IMG/VR virus record: IMGVR_UViG_3300037010_001487
Span: 1 to 21,312 of that record
Origin: a virus
Direction: 5' to 3' (one strand)
Length of the DNA stretch: 21,312 nucleotides
A program made the translations under genes and the position numbers. Shown one piece after another: positions 4,217-18,802 of this stretch (its first letter is position 1; each line of letters begins with the position of its first letter). Under the pieces are notes generated by a model that was not told the origin of the DNA, searched no databases, and saw only the letters and a list, made by a program, of their open reading frames with translations.

Positions 4217-5272
4217 TTACCGCACCGGCTTGAGCTTTTCGCCATGTACATAGTGCTGGCGGGTAACGCTCAAACTGCTGTGCTGCAGCAGGGCTGATGC
4301 ATCAGCCAGTGAGCCGGCCAGCTGGCCTGCGCGCTTGCGCATGTCGCGCAGCCAAAGGTGCGCCACTTCGGGGCACTCGGCCTTCGCTTTGGTGCGTGCC
4401 TCGTCAAACCGTGCCTTGAGCATGCGGTAGGTGATGGGCTTGCGGCCGGCGGCCAGGATGAAGATGTGCTCGGGGGCCTTCAGGGCCTTGCGGCGCTCAA
4501 TGATGGGCTGCAGCACGGTGGATGCTGCCAGGTCAAACTCGGCCCGCTTGCCGGTCTTGCCGGCCTTGACCACCAGCATGCCGGCGCGCACGTCAGTGAG
4601 GCGCAGGGCCAGCACGTCCATCACACGCAGGCCGGTGGCGGTGGCGATGTCGAGCGCGTCTTTGAGCACCTGGTCGCCGTGCTTGTGCAGGGCGGCAAAG
4701 GCCGCGTCGCCCACGTCGACCTGGCGCGAGGTGGTGGGGCCCTTCCAGCCGCTGCGTTGCATGTCGGCCGCTGGCCAGTGCAGCTCAGTGAGGCCCTGCA
4801 GGCGCGCCCAGCCCCAGATCACGCTGAGCAGCTGCATTTCTTGCTTTGCGCGGGCCTTGGCACTGCGCTGGTCGACGTAGCGCACCAGGGTGGGCATCTT
4901 GATGTCTTCCCACCTGGCGCCGCCGAACGGCCCGCGCAGGGCCGCCAGGCACTTGGTGTAGCCCTTGATCGTTTCGGGGCTGCGTTCGCGGCCGTCGGGG
5001 CGGATCTTGAGGCCGCGCTCTTCCCAGCCCCTGAAGGCCTCTTCCAGCGTGCCGGCGATGCGTGGGGCGTCGAGGTGGATCTCGGCCCAGCGGCGCAAAG
5101 CGGCATCGCGGTCATTGCCCAGCTTGATGTCGGGCTTGCCGGTGCCGCGCATGTCGTACCACCAGCTCGTCCACACCTGGCCGGCTTTGCCGCGCTTGAT
5201 GCTGACACGCAGCTTGGGGTATTTGGAGGGTTTAGGCATGGTGCAGACGTCTAGACGGTCGGGGGGAGCCAT
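4217..5272 (-). CDS. int: Tyrosine-recombinase integrase
   Basis: About 351 residues; catalyses site-specific recombination between attP and attB. N-terminal arm-binding region about 13-70 (PKLRVSIKRGKAGQVWTSWW), core-binding SAM-like domain about 75-165, catalytic domain from about 185. Catalytic residues seen (counting from the ATG at 5272): Arg in ATGLRVMD near 216, the lysine hairpin KAGKTGK near 237-242, RDMR near 309-312 where the usual His-x-x-Arg has Arg in place of His (a frequent phage variant), LQHSS His near 331 and Tyr nucleophile in QHYVHG near 341. ATG 5272 shares its A with the previous stop (TGATG); ATG 5239 is a plausible alternative. It is the last gene before the terminator and lies beside the att core. 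Confidence 0.93.
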   Translation of the reverse strand: MAPPDRLDVCTMPKPSKYPKLRVSIKRGKAGQVWTSWWYDMRGTGKPDIKLGNDRDAALRRWAEIHLDAPRIAGTLEEAFRGWEERGLKIRPDGRERSPETIKGYTKCLAALRGPFGGARWEDIKMPTLVRYVDQRSAKARAKQEMQLLSVIWGWARLQGLTELHWPAADMQRSGWKGPTTSRQVDVGDAAFAALHKHGDQVLKDALDIATATGLRVMDVLALRLTDVRAGMLVVKAGKTGKRAEFDLAASTVLQPIIERRKALKAPEHIFILAAGRKPITYRMLKARFDEARTKAKAECPEVAHLWLRDMRKRAGQLAGSLADASALLQHSSLSVTRQHYVHGEKLKPVR

Positions 5273-5517
5273 CACAGATAGGGGTCAGGCACTTCGCGCA
5301 GGGTGCCAAAGTCATCCATCACGGCACACCACGCTTGCGCATCGTGCCGCAGCAGGTGGCGCGCACATGGCGGCCCGGGCCAAAGGTCATTGCTCCACTC
5401 AGGCGTGCCATCGCCTCGGCTGAACATCACAGGCACCTCCCACAGCCATGGCGCAGCATAGATGCTGCCGTGGCGAACGAGCGTGACGTCAAGGCCCAAC
5501 GCATACTGAATCGTCAT
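5272..5517 (-). CDS. Small phage protein, unknown function
   Basis: An 81-residue protein starting at ATG 5517 and ending in a TGA whose last base is the first of the integrase ATG. It is Trp-rich (WLWEVPVMF, WSNDLWPGPPC, WCAVMDDFG) and contains CARHLLRHDAQAW in the middle. No membrane segment, signal or recognised domain. Its position between the DUF4224 protein and the integrase, and translational coupling to the latter, suggest co-expression with the integration/excision functions. I do not recognise the family. Confidence 0.62.
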   Translation of the reverse strand: MTIQYALGLDVTLVRHGSIYAAPWLWEVPVMFSRGDGTPEWSNDLWPGPPCARHLLRHDAQAWCAVMDDFGTLREVPDPYL

Positions 5518-5526
5518 GTGAGGCTT

Positions 5527-5739
5527 TCAGCGCACGAGCGAGAAGTCAACGCCCGAGGCCTTGCTGGCGACCTGGGGCAGCAGGGCGTGGGCCTGGGCCA
5601 CCTGGCGCGACACACGCACGGCGCGGCCCAAGAAGGTAAAAGGGATGCCCTGCCTGGCCAGCACTGCTGCCTGGCTGGCGGGGCGGGTCTTGCCGGTGAT
5701 CTCGACCAGTTCTTTGGCCGTGAGTTCGTCGGTTGTCAC
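5527..5739 (-). CDS. DUF4224-type small protein, excisionase-like
   Basis: A 70-residue protein. GTG 5739 is chosen because it overlaps the upstream stop (GTGA). The sequence DELTAKELVEITGKTRPASQ followed by QAAVLARQGIPFTFLGRAVRV is the signature of DUF4224, a small winged-helix-like domain often encoded beside phage integrases. It resembles excisionase DNA-binding domains, so a recombination directionality role is plausible, but that is inference from family context. It lies two genes upstream of int in the same operon. Confidence 0.75.
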   Translation of the reverse strand: MTTDELTAKELVEITGKTRPASQAAVLARQGIPFTFLGRAVRVSRQVAQAHALLPQVASKASGVDFSLVR

Positions 5740-6200
5740 GCTGCAGCCTTTTCCTTTTCCACGGCGTCGGCCATGGCCTGGGTTTGGATCTCTGACCACA
5801 CTGCGGCCTGTTCGGCGGTGACCAGGTCGACGATGTCGGCCAGGTCATCCATGTGGGCCACGCCTTGCTTGGCCAGTTGGTAGTCGGGCCCGTCGAATGC
5901 CACGCGGTTGGTGCGGCCAAAGCGCTCGATGAGGCGCGTGACCACGTCGAGCTGCACGGCCATCTCGGCCACGCCAGCGTCGAGCAGCTGGGCCACGCGC
6001 ACCCAGGTGAGCACGCTGCCGATGTAATCCCACAGCATGGGCGGCTCAGCCTGGCCGGTGGCGATGGCGTCGAGGTTGCTGACGTGGTACAGGCCAAGCT
6101 CACGGCGTTGGGCGGCCGTGAGCTTGGGGCGCAGCGCGCGTGGCAGCTTGGCAAGAAGGGCGCCATTGGGCTTGCGTGGCGGTGGTGGGCGGCGGCTCAC
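5736..6200 (-). CDS. Phage protein, unknown function
   Basis: A 154-residue protein starting at GTG 6200, which shares a base with the upstream TAG; GGAGG lies about 8 bases upstream. The N-terminus is basic and Pro-rich (MSRRPPPPRKPNGALLAKLPRA), followed by a largely alpha-helical body with LTAAQRRELGLYHVSNLDA and an acidic, Ala-rich end (MADAVEKEKAAA). No catalytic motif or membrane segment. The basic start could contact nucleic acid. It belongs to the integration-end gene cluster by overlap on both sides; I do not recognise a named family. Confidence 0.62.
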   Translation of the reverse strand: MSRRPPPPRKPNGALLAKLPRALRPKLTAAQRRELGLYHVSNLDAIATGQAEPPMLWDYIGSVLTWVRVAQLLDAGVAEMAVQLDVVTRLIERFGRTNRVAFDGPDYQLAKQGVAHMDDLADIVDLVTAEQAAVWSEIQTQAMADAVEKEKAAA

Positions 6201-7036
6201 TACATGCCTCCTTCTGTCTTCGCGCCCGAGACTGCAGCGCGATCCAGCCGCTCAATTTCGGCCAGGATCAGCGCGCCGGCGCGCACAAGATCACTGCGGC
6301 GGTCTTTCGGCTTCCACCAACTCGCTGCCCACGGCCAGTAGCCCGGGCACATGCCATCTGGCCGTTGCGGGGCTGCATAGCAGGCAGCCGCAGCGCCAAT
6401 GCTTCCGTCGCTGTGCGCGTCATCGTGTTGCCAGGGCTGGCCAGCCGGATCAACCAGCATGCCGGTGAGCAGCAGGGGCGATGCGCGCAGGCGCCGGCCC
6501 TGCTGGCCGTCTTCAAGCTGTTTGAGGATGGCCTCGGCCTGGTCGTCGGTGATCAGGGCCGGGTGGGTGTTGCGCTGGATCTGCCACTCATGGCGCGGCC
6601 GGCGTTTGTCGCCGTTGATGCTGGCGGTGCCCATGCGCTCGGCGTGCATGCCCCACACGGTGTGGCCGGCGTAGGTGAGGGCCTGCCAGTCCATGCTTTG
6701 GGTGCTGCTGGTGGGCCATGGCAGGGCCAGCTTGGCCACGGCAGTGCCACGCGGCACGCCGCGGGCGCGCATGGCCAGGTAGGCGGCCACCAACGGGCTG
6801 GCCTGGTCGTCGATCACCAGGCGGCTTTTGAGCACGGGCGCACCATCACGCACGGCACCGGTGGCGGTGTAGTCGAGCGTGTAGCCACGCGGGGCCCGGC
6901 CACCGGCGCGCCAGCCCTGGCGCACGTTCTCGGCCATGCCGGCCAGGCCTTTGGCGCGGCTGATGAGGCTGTGGTACTCGTCAAACGCCTGCAGCACGCT
7001 GCGCAGCACCATGTCGGTGGCGGGGGTGGGGCTCAC
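6200..7036 (-). CDS. Large-serine-recombinase-like protein lacking the catalytic domain
   Basis: A 278-residue protein, start GTG 7036 overlapping the previous stop (GTGA). It reads like the middle of a large serine recombinase: helix SRAKGLAGMAENVRQGWRAG, then GGRAPRGYTLD (family pattern GGRPPYGY), LVIDDQASPLVAAYLAMRARG (family LVIDPEEAxxVRxIFxxYxxG), a segment like the helix before the next block (DWQALTYAGHTVWG), then HPALITDDQAEAILKQLEDG and LLLTGMLVDPAGQPW. The last block is where full enzymes have the zinc-ribbon (LLxGLLxCGxCG); the cysteines are absent. The N-terminal resolvase domain with its catalytic Ser is absent and no sequence for it lies upstream. Translational coupling suggests a kept DNA-binding protein rather than debris. 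A role in regulation or excision is inference. Confidence 0.72.
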   Translation of the reverse strand: MSPTPATDMVLRSVLQAFDEYHSLISRAKGLAGMAENVRQGWRAGGRAPRGYTLDYTATGAVRDGAPVLKSRLVIDDQASPLVAAYLAMRARGVPRGTAVAKLALPWPTSSTQSMDWQALTYAGHTVWGMHAERMGTASINGDKRRPRHEWQIQRNTHPALITDDQAEAILKQLEDGQQGRRLRASPLLLTGMLVDPAGQPWQHDDAHSDGSIGAAAACYAAPQRPDGMCPGYWPWAASWWKPKDRRSDLVRAGALILAEIERLDRAAVSGAKTEGGM

Positions 7037-7239
7037 GGTTTGACAAAAAGCTCGCCGCGAATTTCAATGCAAGCGGTCATTTTTCCTGCGGCGGCACTTA
7101 AAAAGCCGTCGGGGCCCCGTGCCAGCTCGGTGGCATCAAATGATGGTGTGTATTCCAACGTCTTGACAACAAAACGGCCGGCGTCGATTGAATCAGCCAA
7201 GTCGCGCAAGGACTTGGAAAAGTGTTCTTGTTTGACCAC
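7033..7239 (-). CDS. Small phage protein, unknown function
   Basis: A 68-residue protein. The frame stays open upstream, but GTG 7239 has a strong GGAGG at 7249-7245, five bases away, so I take that start. The protein (VVKQEHFSKSLRDLADSIDA, then FVVKTLEYTPSFDATELARG and MTACIEIRGELFVKP) looks like a compact alpha/beta fold. Its stop overlaps the next GTG. The reverse-transcriptase remnant lies directly upstream, ending ~36 bases before this start, so the gene probably marks the edge of a deletion. No recognised family. Confidence 0.62.
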   Translation of the reverse strand: MVKQEHFSKSLRDLADSIDAGRFVVKTLEYTPSFDATELARGPDGFLSAAAGKMTACIEIRGELFVKP

Positions 7240-7274
7240 TTGATCCTCCAGGGGAGCGGATATTGCCACGGTAG

Positions 7275-7388
7275 GCCAGGGCGGTAGTGCCCGCTGGCCA
7301 GCTCTTCGTGTAGCTGGTAGAGGTTGCGCTCGGCATGAGCCTCGAATGCCAGCGCTGAGGCGCTGTTGCGCTTGGTGCGTCGGCAGTT
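7275..7388 (-). pseudogene. Remnant of a reverse transcriptase N-terminus (DGR/retron-type)
   Basis: On the minus strand the frame beginning at 7388 reads CRRTKRNSASALAFEAHAER followed by NLYQLHEELASGHYRPG. This resembles the opening of diversity-generating-retroelement reverse transcriptases, which have a basic region, then FE-x6-NLxxLxxEL-x2-GxYRPG before the first polymerase blocks. Immediately after YRPG the homology stops and the sequence runs into the ribosome-binding site of the next gene. No palm motif (YxDD) follows. An ATG in a different frame at 7404 suggests a small frameshift near the original start. The fragment lies 50 bases downstream of a gene with a DGR-like variable region, the usual neighbourhood of such an enzyme. 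Confidence 0.62.
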
Positions 7389-7437
7389 CGGTATGCAAGT
7401 CCATGGTGGCGGTGCTCAGTTCAAAGGATTGAAGGAC

Positions 7438-7911
7438 TTAAGGGGTGACTCTGCGGATGGCCACAGCAGCGCCTTCGGCGCTCTTGCGGTCGTACTCCTG
7501 GCTGCCGTTGATGAAGGTGCAGTCCCAGGCGAACGAGGCGTCTTGCTCGTGCTGCTGGCAGGACCATTGCCAAACGGGCTTCAGGTGCGGCTTGCAGTTG
7601 GCGTACAGCAAGGCCTGCTCTTGCCGGTCGGGCAGCGATCCGCCGATTTCTTCAGCCCAGGCCATGGCGTCGTCCCAATCAAGATCGCTGTCGGGGCGCG
7701 GGGCCATCAGCACCAGGTGGTGCTTGATCTTGCCGTCAGCATCAAGCACGGTGCCGGCGTAGTGCTCACCGACCTGCAGTGTGATGGTGGCCTCAGGCAC
7801 GATGAGCAGCGTGGGCCGGCTCGTGGGCTTCGATTGCTCGGTAAGTGCGGCAATCAAAACGGCCAAGCGGTTGTGCTCGGCCTGGATGTCTTCAAGGGTG
7901 ATCGTGGTCAC
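7438..7911 (-). CDS. DUF1566-like (C-type-lectin-fold) protein A with DGR-like variable C-terminus
   Basis: A 157-residue protein. GTG 7911 has GGAGAGA at 7923-7917, spacing 5; the open frame upstream is Arg-rich out-of-frame sequence of its neighbour. The N-terminal third (TITLEDIQAEHNRLAVLIAA) is helical. The body (DWDDAMAWAEEIGGSLPDRQ, ALLYANCKPHLKPVWQWSC, SFAWDCTFINGSQEYDRKSA, ending GAAVAIRRV) follows the DUF1566-like pattern WxxAxxWAxxxGGxLPxRxE...YWSS...A...G....AVRR, which has a C-type-lectin-like fold used for display in DGR targets. The last 30 codons before the terminal residues align without gaps to protein B and show AAC-type diversification. No signal peptide. The binding target is unknown. 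Confidence 0.75.
   Translation of the reverse strand: MTTITLEDIQAEHNRLAVLIAALTEQSKPTSRPTLLIVPEATITLQVGEHYAGTVLDADGKIKHHLVLMAPRPDSDLDWDDAMAWAEEIGGSLPDRQEQALLYANCKPHLKPVWQWSCQQHEQDASFAWDCTFINGSQEYDRKSAEGAAVAIRRVTP
7453..7542 (-). repeat. Variable-region-like repeat, copy in protein A
   Basis: Thirty codons that align without gaps to 7968-8057. The distal part (7488-7459, encoding RKSAEGAAVA) is identical over 30 bases in both copies and includes an AGCGCC-GAA-GGCGCT inverted repeat, as expected for an initiation-of-mutagenic-homing end. The proximal part contains codons TTC, GAC, ACC, ATC, AAC, AGC, TAC and GAC, where the partner has TAC, TGC, CGC, GAC, GAC, GGC, GAC and ACC: always C in third position. 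Confidence 0.65.
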
Positions 7912-7946
7912 GGGTGTCTCTCCTGTGGTTTGAAAGGATTGAAGGA

Positions 7947-8378
7947 TCAAGCGGTCAAGGGAATCAAGCGGACGGCCACAGCAGCGCCTTCGGCGCTCTT
8001 GCGGGTGTCGTTCTGGCCGCCGTCGTCGAAGCGGCAGCACCAGGCGTACGAGGCATCGTCTTCGTCTCCGGTGTCTGCTTCGAGGGAGTCACAAGTCCAG
8101 TGCCATTCGGGCTGCAGCTTGGCCTTTGCATGGTCGTACAACAGGGCGGCCACGGGGTGGGTCGGCAGGTGGCCATCGACGCTTTCGGCCCAGGCCTTGG
8201 CGTCTTGCCAGGACAAACGGCGACCAGGCTTGGCATCGACCAGCACCACCGCGTAGTGGATGCCGTCTTTGCCGGTGGTGATGCCCTGAAACGTTCCGCC
8301 TTCCAGTGGCTGGCCCAGTGGAGGCAGGCTGGAAAACAGGATGGCCGCAATAACGGCGTGCTTCAGGGTTTCGGTCAT
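7947..8378 (-). CDS. DUF1566-like (C-type-lectin-fold) protein B with DGR-like variable C-terminus
   Basis: A 143-residue paralogue of protein A, start ATG 8378 with AAAGGAG nine bases upstream. Unlike A it begins with a hydrophobic stretch, MTETLKHAVIAAILFSSLPP, which could be a weak signal or anchor. The body (LSWQDAKAWAESVDGHLPTH, ALLYDHAKAKLQPEWHWTCD, ASYAWCCRFDDGGQNDTRKS, ending GAAVAVRLIPLTA) follows the same DUF1566-like pattern. It is only partly similar to A over most of its length, yet the DNA of the last conserved block is identical. This suggests recent copying of that block from a shared source. Its gene precedes A in the operon with 35 bases between the stop and the next start. 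Confidence 0.75.
   Translation of the reverse strand: MTETLKHAVIAAILFSSLPPLGQPLEGGTFQGITTGKDGIHYAVVLVDAKPGRRLSWQDAKAWAESVDGHLPTHPVAALLYDHAKAKLQPEWHWTCDSLEADTGDEDDASYAWCCRFDDGGQNDTRKSAEGAAVAVRLIPLTA
7968..8057 (-). repeat. Variable-region-like repeat, copy in protein B
   Basis: Partner of 7453-7542, 30 codons. Of 16 base differences between the copies, 14 fall at first or second codon positions and 2 at third positions, the reverse of ordinary divergence. The 30-base block encoding RKSAEGAAVA is identical. Downstream of both genes the motif TCCTTCAATCCTTT is also shared (minus strand). Confidence 0.65.
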
Positions 8379-8708: not shown

Positions 8709-9611
8709 TCAGGCTGCCCGCTTGAGCCCGTTGATGACCTCGCAGGCCGCCAGAACGTGAACGGCATTGCCGATCATCTTCATGGCCGTCTTGTGGTCTT
8801 CGGGCAGTTGGTAATCAGCGGGCAGGCCCATGAAGCGCTTGGCCTCGGGGATGCTCACCATTCGGATTCGGTCGCCGTTGATCACGGCATAGCGGTCGAC
8901 GGTCGTCAGCGTGCCGATGGGGCGCGCCAAGCTGCGGCCAGTGCGCGTGCTGCCGTAATAGGGCAGCAAGAAGCGCTCGCCCAACTCAGCGCGGCCAACC
9001 GCAACAAGGCGTTGCGTGCGCGGCACTTTGTCAGCAACGCGTGACCAGTTGCCGGCGTTGAAGTCGATCACCTCGGCAGCAGGTCGCGGGTCACGCTTGG
9101 GCAGGTTGAGTTGCACCGGATGCTTTGACCGGGTGCCGACGATGAACAAGCGCGGACGGCTTTGCGATGCACCCAGGTCTGCGCAGTCAACCAGCATCGG
9201 GGCAAGTGCATAACCCAGGGCATGCATGGCCGCGCACCAAGCTTGGTACAGCACCCACTTGGCGTAGTCGGGCACGTTCTCCACGATGAAGGCTTGCGGC
9301 CGGTGTACCTCTGCGCAGGTCACCACTGCCCAGGCGGTGGCGCGCAGGGCATCGTGGTGCGGCTTCTCTTCCCCGCGGGCTTTGCTGTGCCCTTGGCAGG
9401 CTGGAGACGCCAGCAGCAAATCGTGTGCAGGCACGTCACGAAAGTCGGCCTGCTGCAAATCCTGGCAAGCATGCTCTGTGCCTGGGTGATTCGCCGCATG
9501 CCACTCCACGGCCGTGGGCCAGTGGTTGGCGGCCCACACCACGGTGCAGCCTGCAGCAGCAGCCCCGGTGCTGAAGCCGCCGGCTCCTGCGAACATGTCG
9601 ATGGCGTTCAC
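8709..9611 (-). CDS. C5 cytosine-specific DNA methyltransferase
   Basis: A 300-residue enzyme that transfers a methyl group from S-adenosylmethionine to cytosine C5 in a specific DNA site. Motif [12 protein letters not shown] is at residues 6-16, the catalytic loop is [10 protein letters not shown] (Cys near 72; the usual PPCQ reads PACQ), motif VI IVENV at ~109-113, motif [15 protein letters not shown] at ~149-159, and motifs IX-X are at the end ([21 protein letters not shown]). The target-recognition region between VIII and IX is short, so this is a compact monospecific enzyme. No restriction endonuclease is adjacent, so it is an orphan phage methylase, likely protecting the phage from host restriction. 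It overlaps the upstream HD gene by 4 bases. Confidence 0.92.
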
Positions 9612-10132
9612 GCTGCCCTCAGCTCAGCAAACCGCGCCAAAAACATCGCCCTGGCCGTCTCCGGTGACACCGGCTTGATGACGACGGGCAGCAGCTCAAG
9701 GCCTGCAGTGCAATCCCATTGGTCTTGGTAGTCGGGCATCAGGTCGCGCTTCTCGGTGCCCAGCAGCACCAGGTCGGCGTGCTTGACCGAAGCAGGGAGC
9801 TTCGCCGGCAGCCCATACCGGCCGAACACGGCCGCCTCCACGCGGTCTTCGATCACCTTGTAGTCGGGCAACAACTGCTTGAGCGGTTTGGCCACGTCGC
9901 CAATGAATGCTTCGGCAGCGTCATGCATCAGGCCTGCAAAAGCGTCTTCGGCCGGCACGATGTGCGACACCAGCACAGAGTGCTGCGCGACGCTGTAGAA
10001 CGTGTGCACGTGGCCCGTGAAACGACAGATGTGGCTCAGCGCGTGAGCGATGTCCACGATGGTGAATTCGCATTTCTCGGGATTGAGGAAGTCGAAGTAG
10101 GTGCCGCCTTGGGTGAGGATGTCGGGGCGCAT
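9608..10132 (-). CDS. HD-domain phosphohydrolase (YfbR-like nucleotidase)
   Basis: A 174-residue protein; ATG 10132 shares a base with the upstream TGA (TGATG). HD-family metal ligands are visible: His in [10 protein letters not shown] near 51, the His-Asp pair in [14 protein letters not shown] near 70-71, and Asp in [15 protein letters not shown]. The segment [20 protein letters not shown] is typical of phage HD proteins related to 5'-deoxynucleotidase YfbR. The likely role is hydrolysis of deoxynucleoside monophosphates or other nucleotides during phage DNA synthesis; substrate specificity cannot be read from sequence. The adjacent methyltransferase hints at nucleotide/DNA modification metabolism but does not prove a link. 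Confidence 0.85.
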
Positions 10133-18008: not shown

Positions 18009-18716
18009 TCAGTACGCCTCAGCTTCTGCACGGGTGATGAAAAAGTGGATGCCTGGAGCGCATTCGGTTTGCCAGTCGTCGCTGAACGAATCCGGCGTTA
18101 CGCGATTACCCGCGATGTACTGAGTTTTTCCGTCATACCTTGCAATGCCGACTTCAGCGCCGATCACTTGCAATACATCAGCAAATTCAGCGCGGCACTT
18201 TCGGCCAAATGCATGCGAGCGCTTTGCATCGGCGGGGATGCGCAATTGCACGATCACACCGCCTTGACACTTTTTCCAACCGATCAGATCACCATCGGGA
18301 AGGATGCGAGTGCACGCTATCGCAAGCTCAACTCCAACGGCACCGCTCAGGTTGGCACCGCTCAGGTTGGCACCGCTCAGGTTGGCACCGCTCAGGTTGG
18401 CACCGCTCAGGTCGGCACCGCTCAGGTTGGCACCGCTCAGGTCGGCACCGCTCAGGTCGGCACCGCTCAGGTTGGCACTGATCAGGTCGGCACCGCTCAG
18501 GTAGGCACCGATCAGGTCGGCACCGCTCAGGTTGGTACCGATCAGGTTGGCACCGATCAGGTCGGCACCGCTCAGGTCGGCACCGCTCAGGTTGGTACGG
18601 CTTTGCGCAGCTTTTTCCAACGCATGCCGCGTATGCAAACCACTATCTATGTCATCCGGCACGTCGCACTCAAAGAGCACGGCATCTGTGAATCGGTGCT
18701 TGATCTGAACTTTCAT
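18009..18716 (-). CDS. Pentapeptide-repeat protein with DUF5758-like C-terminal domain
   Basis: A 235-residue protein from ATG 18716 (overlapping the stop of a 29-aa gene). Residues 1-41 form an N-terminal lead ([20 protein letters not shown]). Residues 42-126 are 17 perfect-length pentapeptides of type A(D/N)LSG, which fold as a right-handed quadrilateral beta-helix. The C-terminal domain ([58 protein letters not shown]) matches the DUF5758-type domain commonly fused to pentapeptide repeats in phages and plasmids. The repeats are nearly identical at DNA level (15-bp unit), so repeat number can change easily. Pentapeptide proteins can mimic DNA, but no partner is evident. Confidence 0.85.
18339..18593. 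repeat. Tandem array of 17 units of 15 bp in the pentapeptide gene
   Basis: The plus strand shows GGCACCGCTCAGGTT repeated in register with few substitutions (for example CTCAGGTC, ATCAGG, GTACC variants). Each unit encodes one A(D/N)LSG pentapeptide on the minus strand. Units near the 3' end of the gene are most uniform, and those near the 5' end carry most variants, as expected from expansion at one side. Confidence 0.85.
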
Positions 18717-18802
18717 CTGTCTCTCCGGGACCAAGGCTTGACGATCACAGACGCCTGACGCGCCATTTCGGTGTAGTGGGCAACTGCGTTGGGGTGGGCC
18801 AT
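18713..18802 (-). CDS. 29-residue peptide made from a duplicated gene start
   Basis: The reading frame starts at ATG 18802 and ends in a TGA overlapping the pentapeptide-gene ATG (ATGA). It encodes [20 protein letters not shown] followed by VKPWSRRDR. The first 13-14 residues are the same as those of the protein at 17753-18007, because 41 bases are duplicated. It lies 7 bases after the lipoprotein stop. It may be only a translated leader that couples ribosomes to the pentapeptide gene. Confidence 0.45.
18762..18802 (-). repeat. 41-bp direct repeat, copy 2 (start of the 29-aa gene)
   Basis: Second copy of the repeat at 17967-18007, about 795 bases away in the same orientation. Recombination between the copies would delete or amplify the pentapeptide gene as a unit, keeping the operon in frame. 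Confidence 0.85.

Follow-up and report, generated by a model that had tools for sequence, protein, structure and literature searches.

Diversity-generating retroelements (DGRs) are as a rule described as working machines. The DGR of the Bordetella phage BPP-1, as set out in the accessible part of PMC12875486, comprises avd, a template repeat (TR) and a reverse transcriptase (RT), together with a target gene carrying a variable region (VR). Inactivated DGRs have already been published. The accessible part of Schillinger et al. 2012 (DiGReF, PMC3521204) reports DGRs inactivated by a nonsense mutation, an insertion element or a frameshift, with VR and TR clean; adenine-only exchanges beside a broken RT are read there as very recent inactivation, and a mutated RT is described for which another copy may serve the targets. 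In the accessible part of a global survey (PMC8144416), active and inactive DGRs are told apart by VR variation. We found no report of repeated deletion of the DGR core in one phage group in the accessible parts of the open-licence full-text literature, and the accessible part of PMC3091744 likewise contains no such case.

The DNA analysed here (the window) is a stretch of 21,312 nucleotides, positions 1 to 21,312 of the IMG/VR record IMGVR_UViG_3300037010_001487. It belongs to a temperate phage with relatives among Burkholderiales prophages. A second record of this phage, IMGVR_UViG_3300035180_001067 (G001; 36,506 bases), holds the entire window; the two disagree at positions 10123 and 10126, both within the first 16,040 bases, and at no position of the remainder. 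We give a probability of about 0.88 to the reading that the window carries a decayed DGR of this phage, deleted through a microhomology joint, with both targets frozen at their last diversified versions. The features concerned are listed in Table 1.

Table 1. Features of the broken cassette and its surroundings, in window positions.
Feature	Position	Strand	Description
Target gene B	7947..8378	(-)	143 aa, C-type-lectin-like variable protein; ORF, relatives in 59 comparison loci, alignment
VR of target B	7968..8057	(-)	90-nt span used in tests
Target gene A	7438..7911	(-)	probable GTG start at 7911 by alignment of relatives; open frame from 8040
VR of target A	7453..7542	(-)	90-nt span used in tests
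Avd stub	7380..7404	(-)	collinear with the Avd start of L002 and L177
Joint 1	7380..7387	(-)	6-8 nt common to the Avd and RT sides: ACTGCC, up to ACTGCCGA
RT fragment	7274..7387	(-)	profile positions 18-55 of 364; PHROG, tblastn, own profile, L177 alignment
Unrelated 68-aa ORF	7033..7239	(-)	GTG start, ribosome-binding site GGAGG at 7249-7245, after the RT break
Truncated serine recombinase	6200..7036	(-)	residues 5-211 match 113-312 of the 505-aa L049 recombinase

The original prediction placed about 38 RT-like residues on the minus strand at 7275-7388, and these residues are present as quoted. When searched against RT families, the 38-residue stump matched PHROG 1423 (reverse transcriptase) over the whole fragment with E=6.5e-8, and PADLOC RT weakly (E=0.0041); a Pfam search of this very short piece gave no match. 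With an HMM built from 138 related RT loci the fragment was recognised at E about 1e-13, and tblastn found 16 phage records, the best nine at 55-71% identity. Chance similarity or a plain intergenic origin of the stump is ruled out by the PHROG, tblastn and related-RT profile matches. The stump had been taken for the N-terminus of an RT; it lies near the N-terminus, not at it, as profile positions 1-17 are also lacking. It had also been described as stopping abruptly at the ribosome-binding site of an unrelated gene: the RT similarity does stop abruptly, at 7274, and that site follows about 25 nt further on.

Polymerase motifs had been reported as absent, and an RVT_1 profile search of the window indeed gave no match. 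The same search of the 36.5-kb record containing the window found none either, and an RT with the SQ motif and YxDD is absent from it. The RT and TR might instead persist in a part of the genome outside the two records, since G001, at 36.5 kb, may be incomplete, and three of 80 relatives carry an RT at another place in the contig (L140, L161 and L174). We regard this as very unlikely, as the avd and RT remnants at the usual site reveal that the cassette there was destroyed, and the TR, which normally adjoins avd and RT, is found nowhere within 36.5 kb.

A further remnant, absent from the original prediction, lies directly beside the RT fragment. We found that the Avd stub consists of the start codon and first codons of the DGR accessory gene Avd, eight in all (MDLHTELP); an Avd profile search of this phage's loci gave no match, only these eight codons, start included, persisting. 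The left side of the joint is the avd start ATGGACTTGCATACCGAACTGCCG, with the counterpart ATGGCCTTGCATCACGAACTGCCG in L177, and the right side is RT, ACTGCCGACGCACCAAGCGC, an exact 26-mer also found in six viral contigs beyond those of this phage. Microhomology of at least 6 nt at a random junction occurs in 0.3% of random pairs (chance 0.003). Reading from the avd start codon leads in frame into the 68-aa ORF and yields a fused frame of 123 aa (7033-7404, minus strand), in which the RT fragment is read in another frame.

The deletion ends were mapped by comparison with intact relatives, which show the order target-target-Avd-TR-RT, whereas in the window the Avd start runs straight into an RT fragment. 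The closest intact cassette by TR is that of L177, a prophage in a Methylibium MAG, which also gave the longest collinear match among the five loci compared. Window positions 8335-7380 are collinear with L177 4631-5573 at 76% identity, the alignment breaks exactly at the joint, and it resumes within the L177 RT, where window positions 7387-7274 match up to L177 6325. The distance from the avd start to the RT joint in L177 is 662 bp, and therefore about 646 bp, comprising the remainder of Avd, the TR and the beginning of the RT, are missing from the window relative to L177. At the second break, roughly 310 further RT positions are gone. Another intact relative, L002, carries two targets followed by avd (8784-9146), the TR (about 9328) and the RT (to 10540). 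The avd stub and RT fragment are thus broken remnants of cassette genes at the cassette's own place, beside the targets, and outside the breaks the region matches intact relatives collinearly. A VR-TR recombination event was considered as the cause of the deletion and is ruled out, since the avd start sits between VR A and the RT fragment.

The genome is metagenomic, and an assembler can be misled by the near-repeats that VR and TR form. Both points would favour an assembly artefact in which the assembler skipped the cassette. The joint, however, is a match of 6-8 nt and not a VR/TR repeat, too short for k-mer collapse, and it is common to two records, possibly not independent assemblies, that differ at 2 of 16,040 compared positions. 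The gene downstream is moreover foreign to the cassette. We consider such an artefact extremely improbable, and keep to the reading of a genuine deletion.

Beyond the RT break, the 68-aa ORF has no homologues in phages, and in IMG/VR only this same phage carries it. The serine recombinase that follows lacks its N-terminal catalytic part, and its C-terminus is of other origin (residues 203-271 match PHROGs of unknown function); the 505-aa serine recombinase of L049 is encoded downstream of the DGR of that locus. Since a foreign ORF is followed by a decapitated recombinase, the region from the targets to the integrase was cut and joined more than once. A tyrosine integrase (4217-5275) and an excisionase-like gene (5527-5799) adjoin the serine recombinase, and the phage may have switched integrase type. 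Elsewhere in the window, direct repeats of units of about 15 nt occupy 18338-18602 within a pentapeptide-repeat-like ORF (GADLSGA; 18009-18734, minus strand).

Targets A and B each match Lcl_C weakly, below the cut-off. The model of target A (pLDDT 71) shows a weak resemblance to C-type lectins; a fold search with it gave no match at E<=0.001, and the comparison with the C-terminal domain of Legionella Lcl gave a probability of 1.00 but E=0.029. Of the 25 TR-adenine sites, 13 differ between the two VRs, against 3 of the 65 other sites (Fisher p=1.1e-6), where, the native TR being missing, non-adenine positions are judged against the TR of a relative (L177) as proxy. When 74 distinct TRs were used as proxies, the median p was 3e-6, with p<1e-3 in 66 of 74 and weaker values in eight, the worst being p=0.019. 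Upstream of the VR, the two genes are identical at 122 of 225 codon-aligned nucleotides (54%). Copying from one TR would be the natural way to equalise two such different genes outside adenines, and, judged by this signature, both neighbouring genes are genuine DGR targets. The likeness of the VRs outside adenines, although the genes are only 54% identical upstream, therefore points to recent diversification. The two changes in VR A outside adenines could be drift, or a trace of a different original TR. A TCCTTCAATCCTTT-like box follows the targets (window 7415-7437 and 7930-7950, minus strand) and is also seen in L002, L118, L120, L178 and others; it is possibly part of a homing signal or of translation coupling.

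The template repeat that had been reported as lacking from the window is lacking from the 36.5-kb record as well, the best other site showing at least 23 mismatches of 55, while a similar scan recovered the TR in 130 of 132 loci with intact RT and targets (loci not deduplicated by contig). The machinery may nevertheless act from elsewhere: the original prediction had allowed for an RT in trans, and the VRs of a cassette broken in cis could still be rewritten by the Avd, TR and RT of a co-resident prophage or related phage. The VRs are almost clean outside adenines, the TR of L177 is very close to the source TR of the VRs (4 sites differ outside A), and the accessible part of PMC3521204 offers a precedent in Pseudogulbenkiania, where distal targets adjoin a strongly mutated RT while an intact RT is present at another place. 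No support for such a donor was found, however: the 27-nt 3' core shared by the ends of both VRs, AAGAGCGCCGAAGGCGCTGCTGTGGCC, occurs in no other IMG/VR contig, a relaxed form likewise revealing no donor, and is absent from the GTDB species genomes scanned. The two records of this phage also agree completely in both VRs, and VR A carries its two differences outside adenines. One candidate donor, L137, which shares its IMG sample number with G001, was rejected; it has one target, no Avd, TR or RT in the 2.26 kb downstream of it, and no RVT_1 in its 12.5 kb. Rewriting in trans is therefore held to be unlikely.

The comparison with intact relatives and the adenine restriction of the VR differences support the earlier suggestion that the phage lost the machinery and kept its last diversified proteins. 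According to this decayed-cassette reading, the ancestor carried, on the minus strand, the usual cassette of target B, target A, avd, TR and RT in this order. As the comparison shows, one deletion fused avd codon 8 to an early RT codon through the 6-8 nt microhomology, and a second break took the remaining roughly 310 RT positions. Without Avd, TR and RT, mutagenic retrohoming should be impossible in cis, and both target proteins are therefore probably frozen, evolving by ordinary mutation. The loss would be recent, because the two VRs are still nearly identical outside adenine sites.

To place this loss among its relatives, IMG/VR was scanned for relatives of target A; 97 were found, and the counts given here cover 80 of those contigs. 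A full one-frame RT is present in 54 of the 80, each of which has the SQ motif and YxDD, and in intact contigs the RT ends 1704-1885 bp past the target. Besides the three contigs whose RT lies at another place, there are six that stop too close to the target (L135, L142, L149, L154, L163 and L168). L165 carries a complete DGR RT split by a frameshift (6403-7514) with avd and TR intact, which is either a sequencing error or a fresh inactivation.

Sixteen of the 80 extend for more than 2 kb downstream and yet have no full RT. Evidence of a DGR is kept by 12 of these, representing ten distinct sequences with different breaks, since L113 is identical to L114 and L118 to L119; the proportion 12 of 80 is approximate, as the intact contigs may include duplicates and the protein of the window stands first in the query alignment. 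Among the 12 are this phage (L097), L106 with avd cut after residue 47 and L118/L119 with avd cut after residue 57, both without TR and RT, as well as L121 and L126, in which only RT positions 298-364 and 316-364 are left, respectively. In L111, L113/L114 and L144, avd and TR are kept and the RT is cut at 250, 127 and 108, respectively, and L120 and L131 retain the VR signature only. No DGR remnant was found in more than 2 kb downstream in L128, L134, L137 and L164. Beyond the 80, L087 keeps avd without TR or RT, L180 (a Burkholderiales MAG) keeps avd without TR or RT at the target locus, and L078 and L086 have cut RTs. In three contigs, an HNH_3 endonuclease gene immediately follows target A, where intact relatives have avd (L120 5513-5980, L131 5574-6152 and L126 5532-6023); mobile endonucleases may replace DGR cores.

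The number of non-adenine differences between paired VRs was used as a crude clock of the time since loss. Among 57 intact pairs, that is, 62 distinct pairs minus five with 18-26 non-adenine differences that were taken as mis-anchored, there were 0 differences in 41, 1 in 13 and 2 in 3. The seven pairs without TR and RT showed 2 (the window), 1, 0, 0, 4, 0 and 2 (rank test p=0.02), a contrast weakened by the use of proxy TRs for these pairs; L106 (indel), the first pair of L121 (mis-anchored) and L180 (no anchor) were omitted. On this clock the losses look recent, with at most slight drift.

One possible explanation of these losses is that in this group of temperate phages the DGR core behaves as a module that disappears repeatedly through independent deletions or replacements, in some cases with an HNH endonuclease gene taking its place, while both diversified targets stay open, so that the phages would diversify and then freeze, fixing a successful binder. 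We consider this tentative and rather doubtful. If it is true, the lack of old orphans that have drifted would imply that frozen lineages either do not last long or quickly acquire a cassette anew. Whether phages discard the machine in order to retain a good binder can be tested on these repeated losses, and a cassette caught just after deletion, with readable joints and two targets recording past activity, shows how a DGR dies.

As compared with known systems, the window shares the gene order of L177, L002, Burkholderia phage Magia (whose annotation lists a target with a lectin fold, a protein resembling Avd and an RT) and Pseudomonas phage Cruim01, all of which have avd-TR-RT downstream of the targets. 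These four retain avd and a full RT, the TR being shown also for L177 and L002, whereas in the window avd is reduced to a stub of 8 codons and the RT to a fragment of 38 codons. The BPP-1 DGR works, in contrast to the cassette of the window, which lacks avd, TR and RT and has two targets. Like the inactivated DGRs in the accessible part of PMC3521204, the window combines a broken RT with a preserved adenine signature in the VRs, but here avd, the TR and most of the RT have been deleted. In the cyanobacterial targets described in the accessible part of PMC7517822, the target likewise outlives the diversifying parts; those targets are dispersed paralogues with no RT pseudogene nearby, whereas in the window the deletion joints are visible in place.
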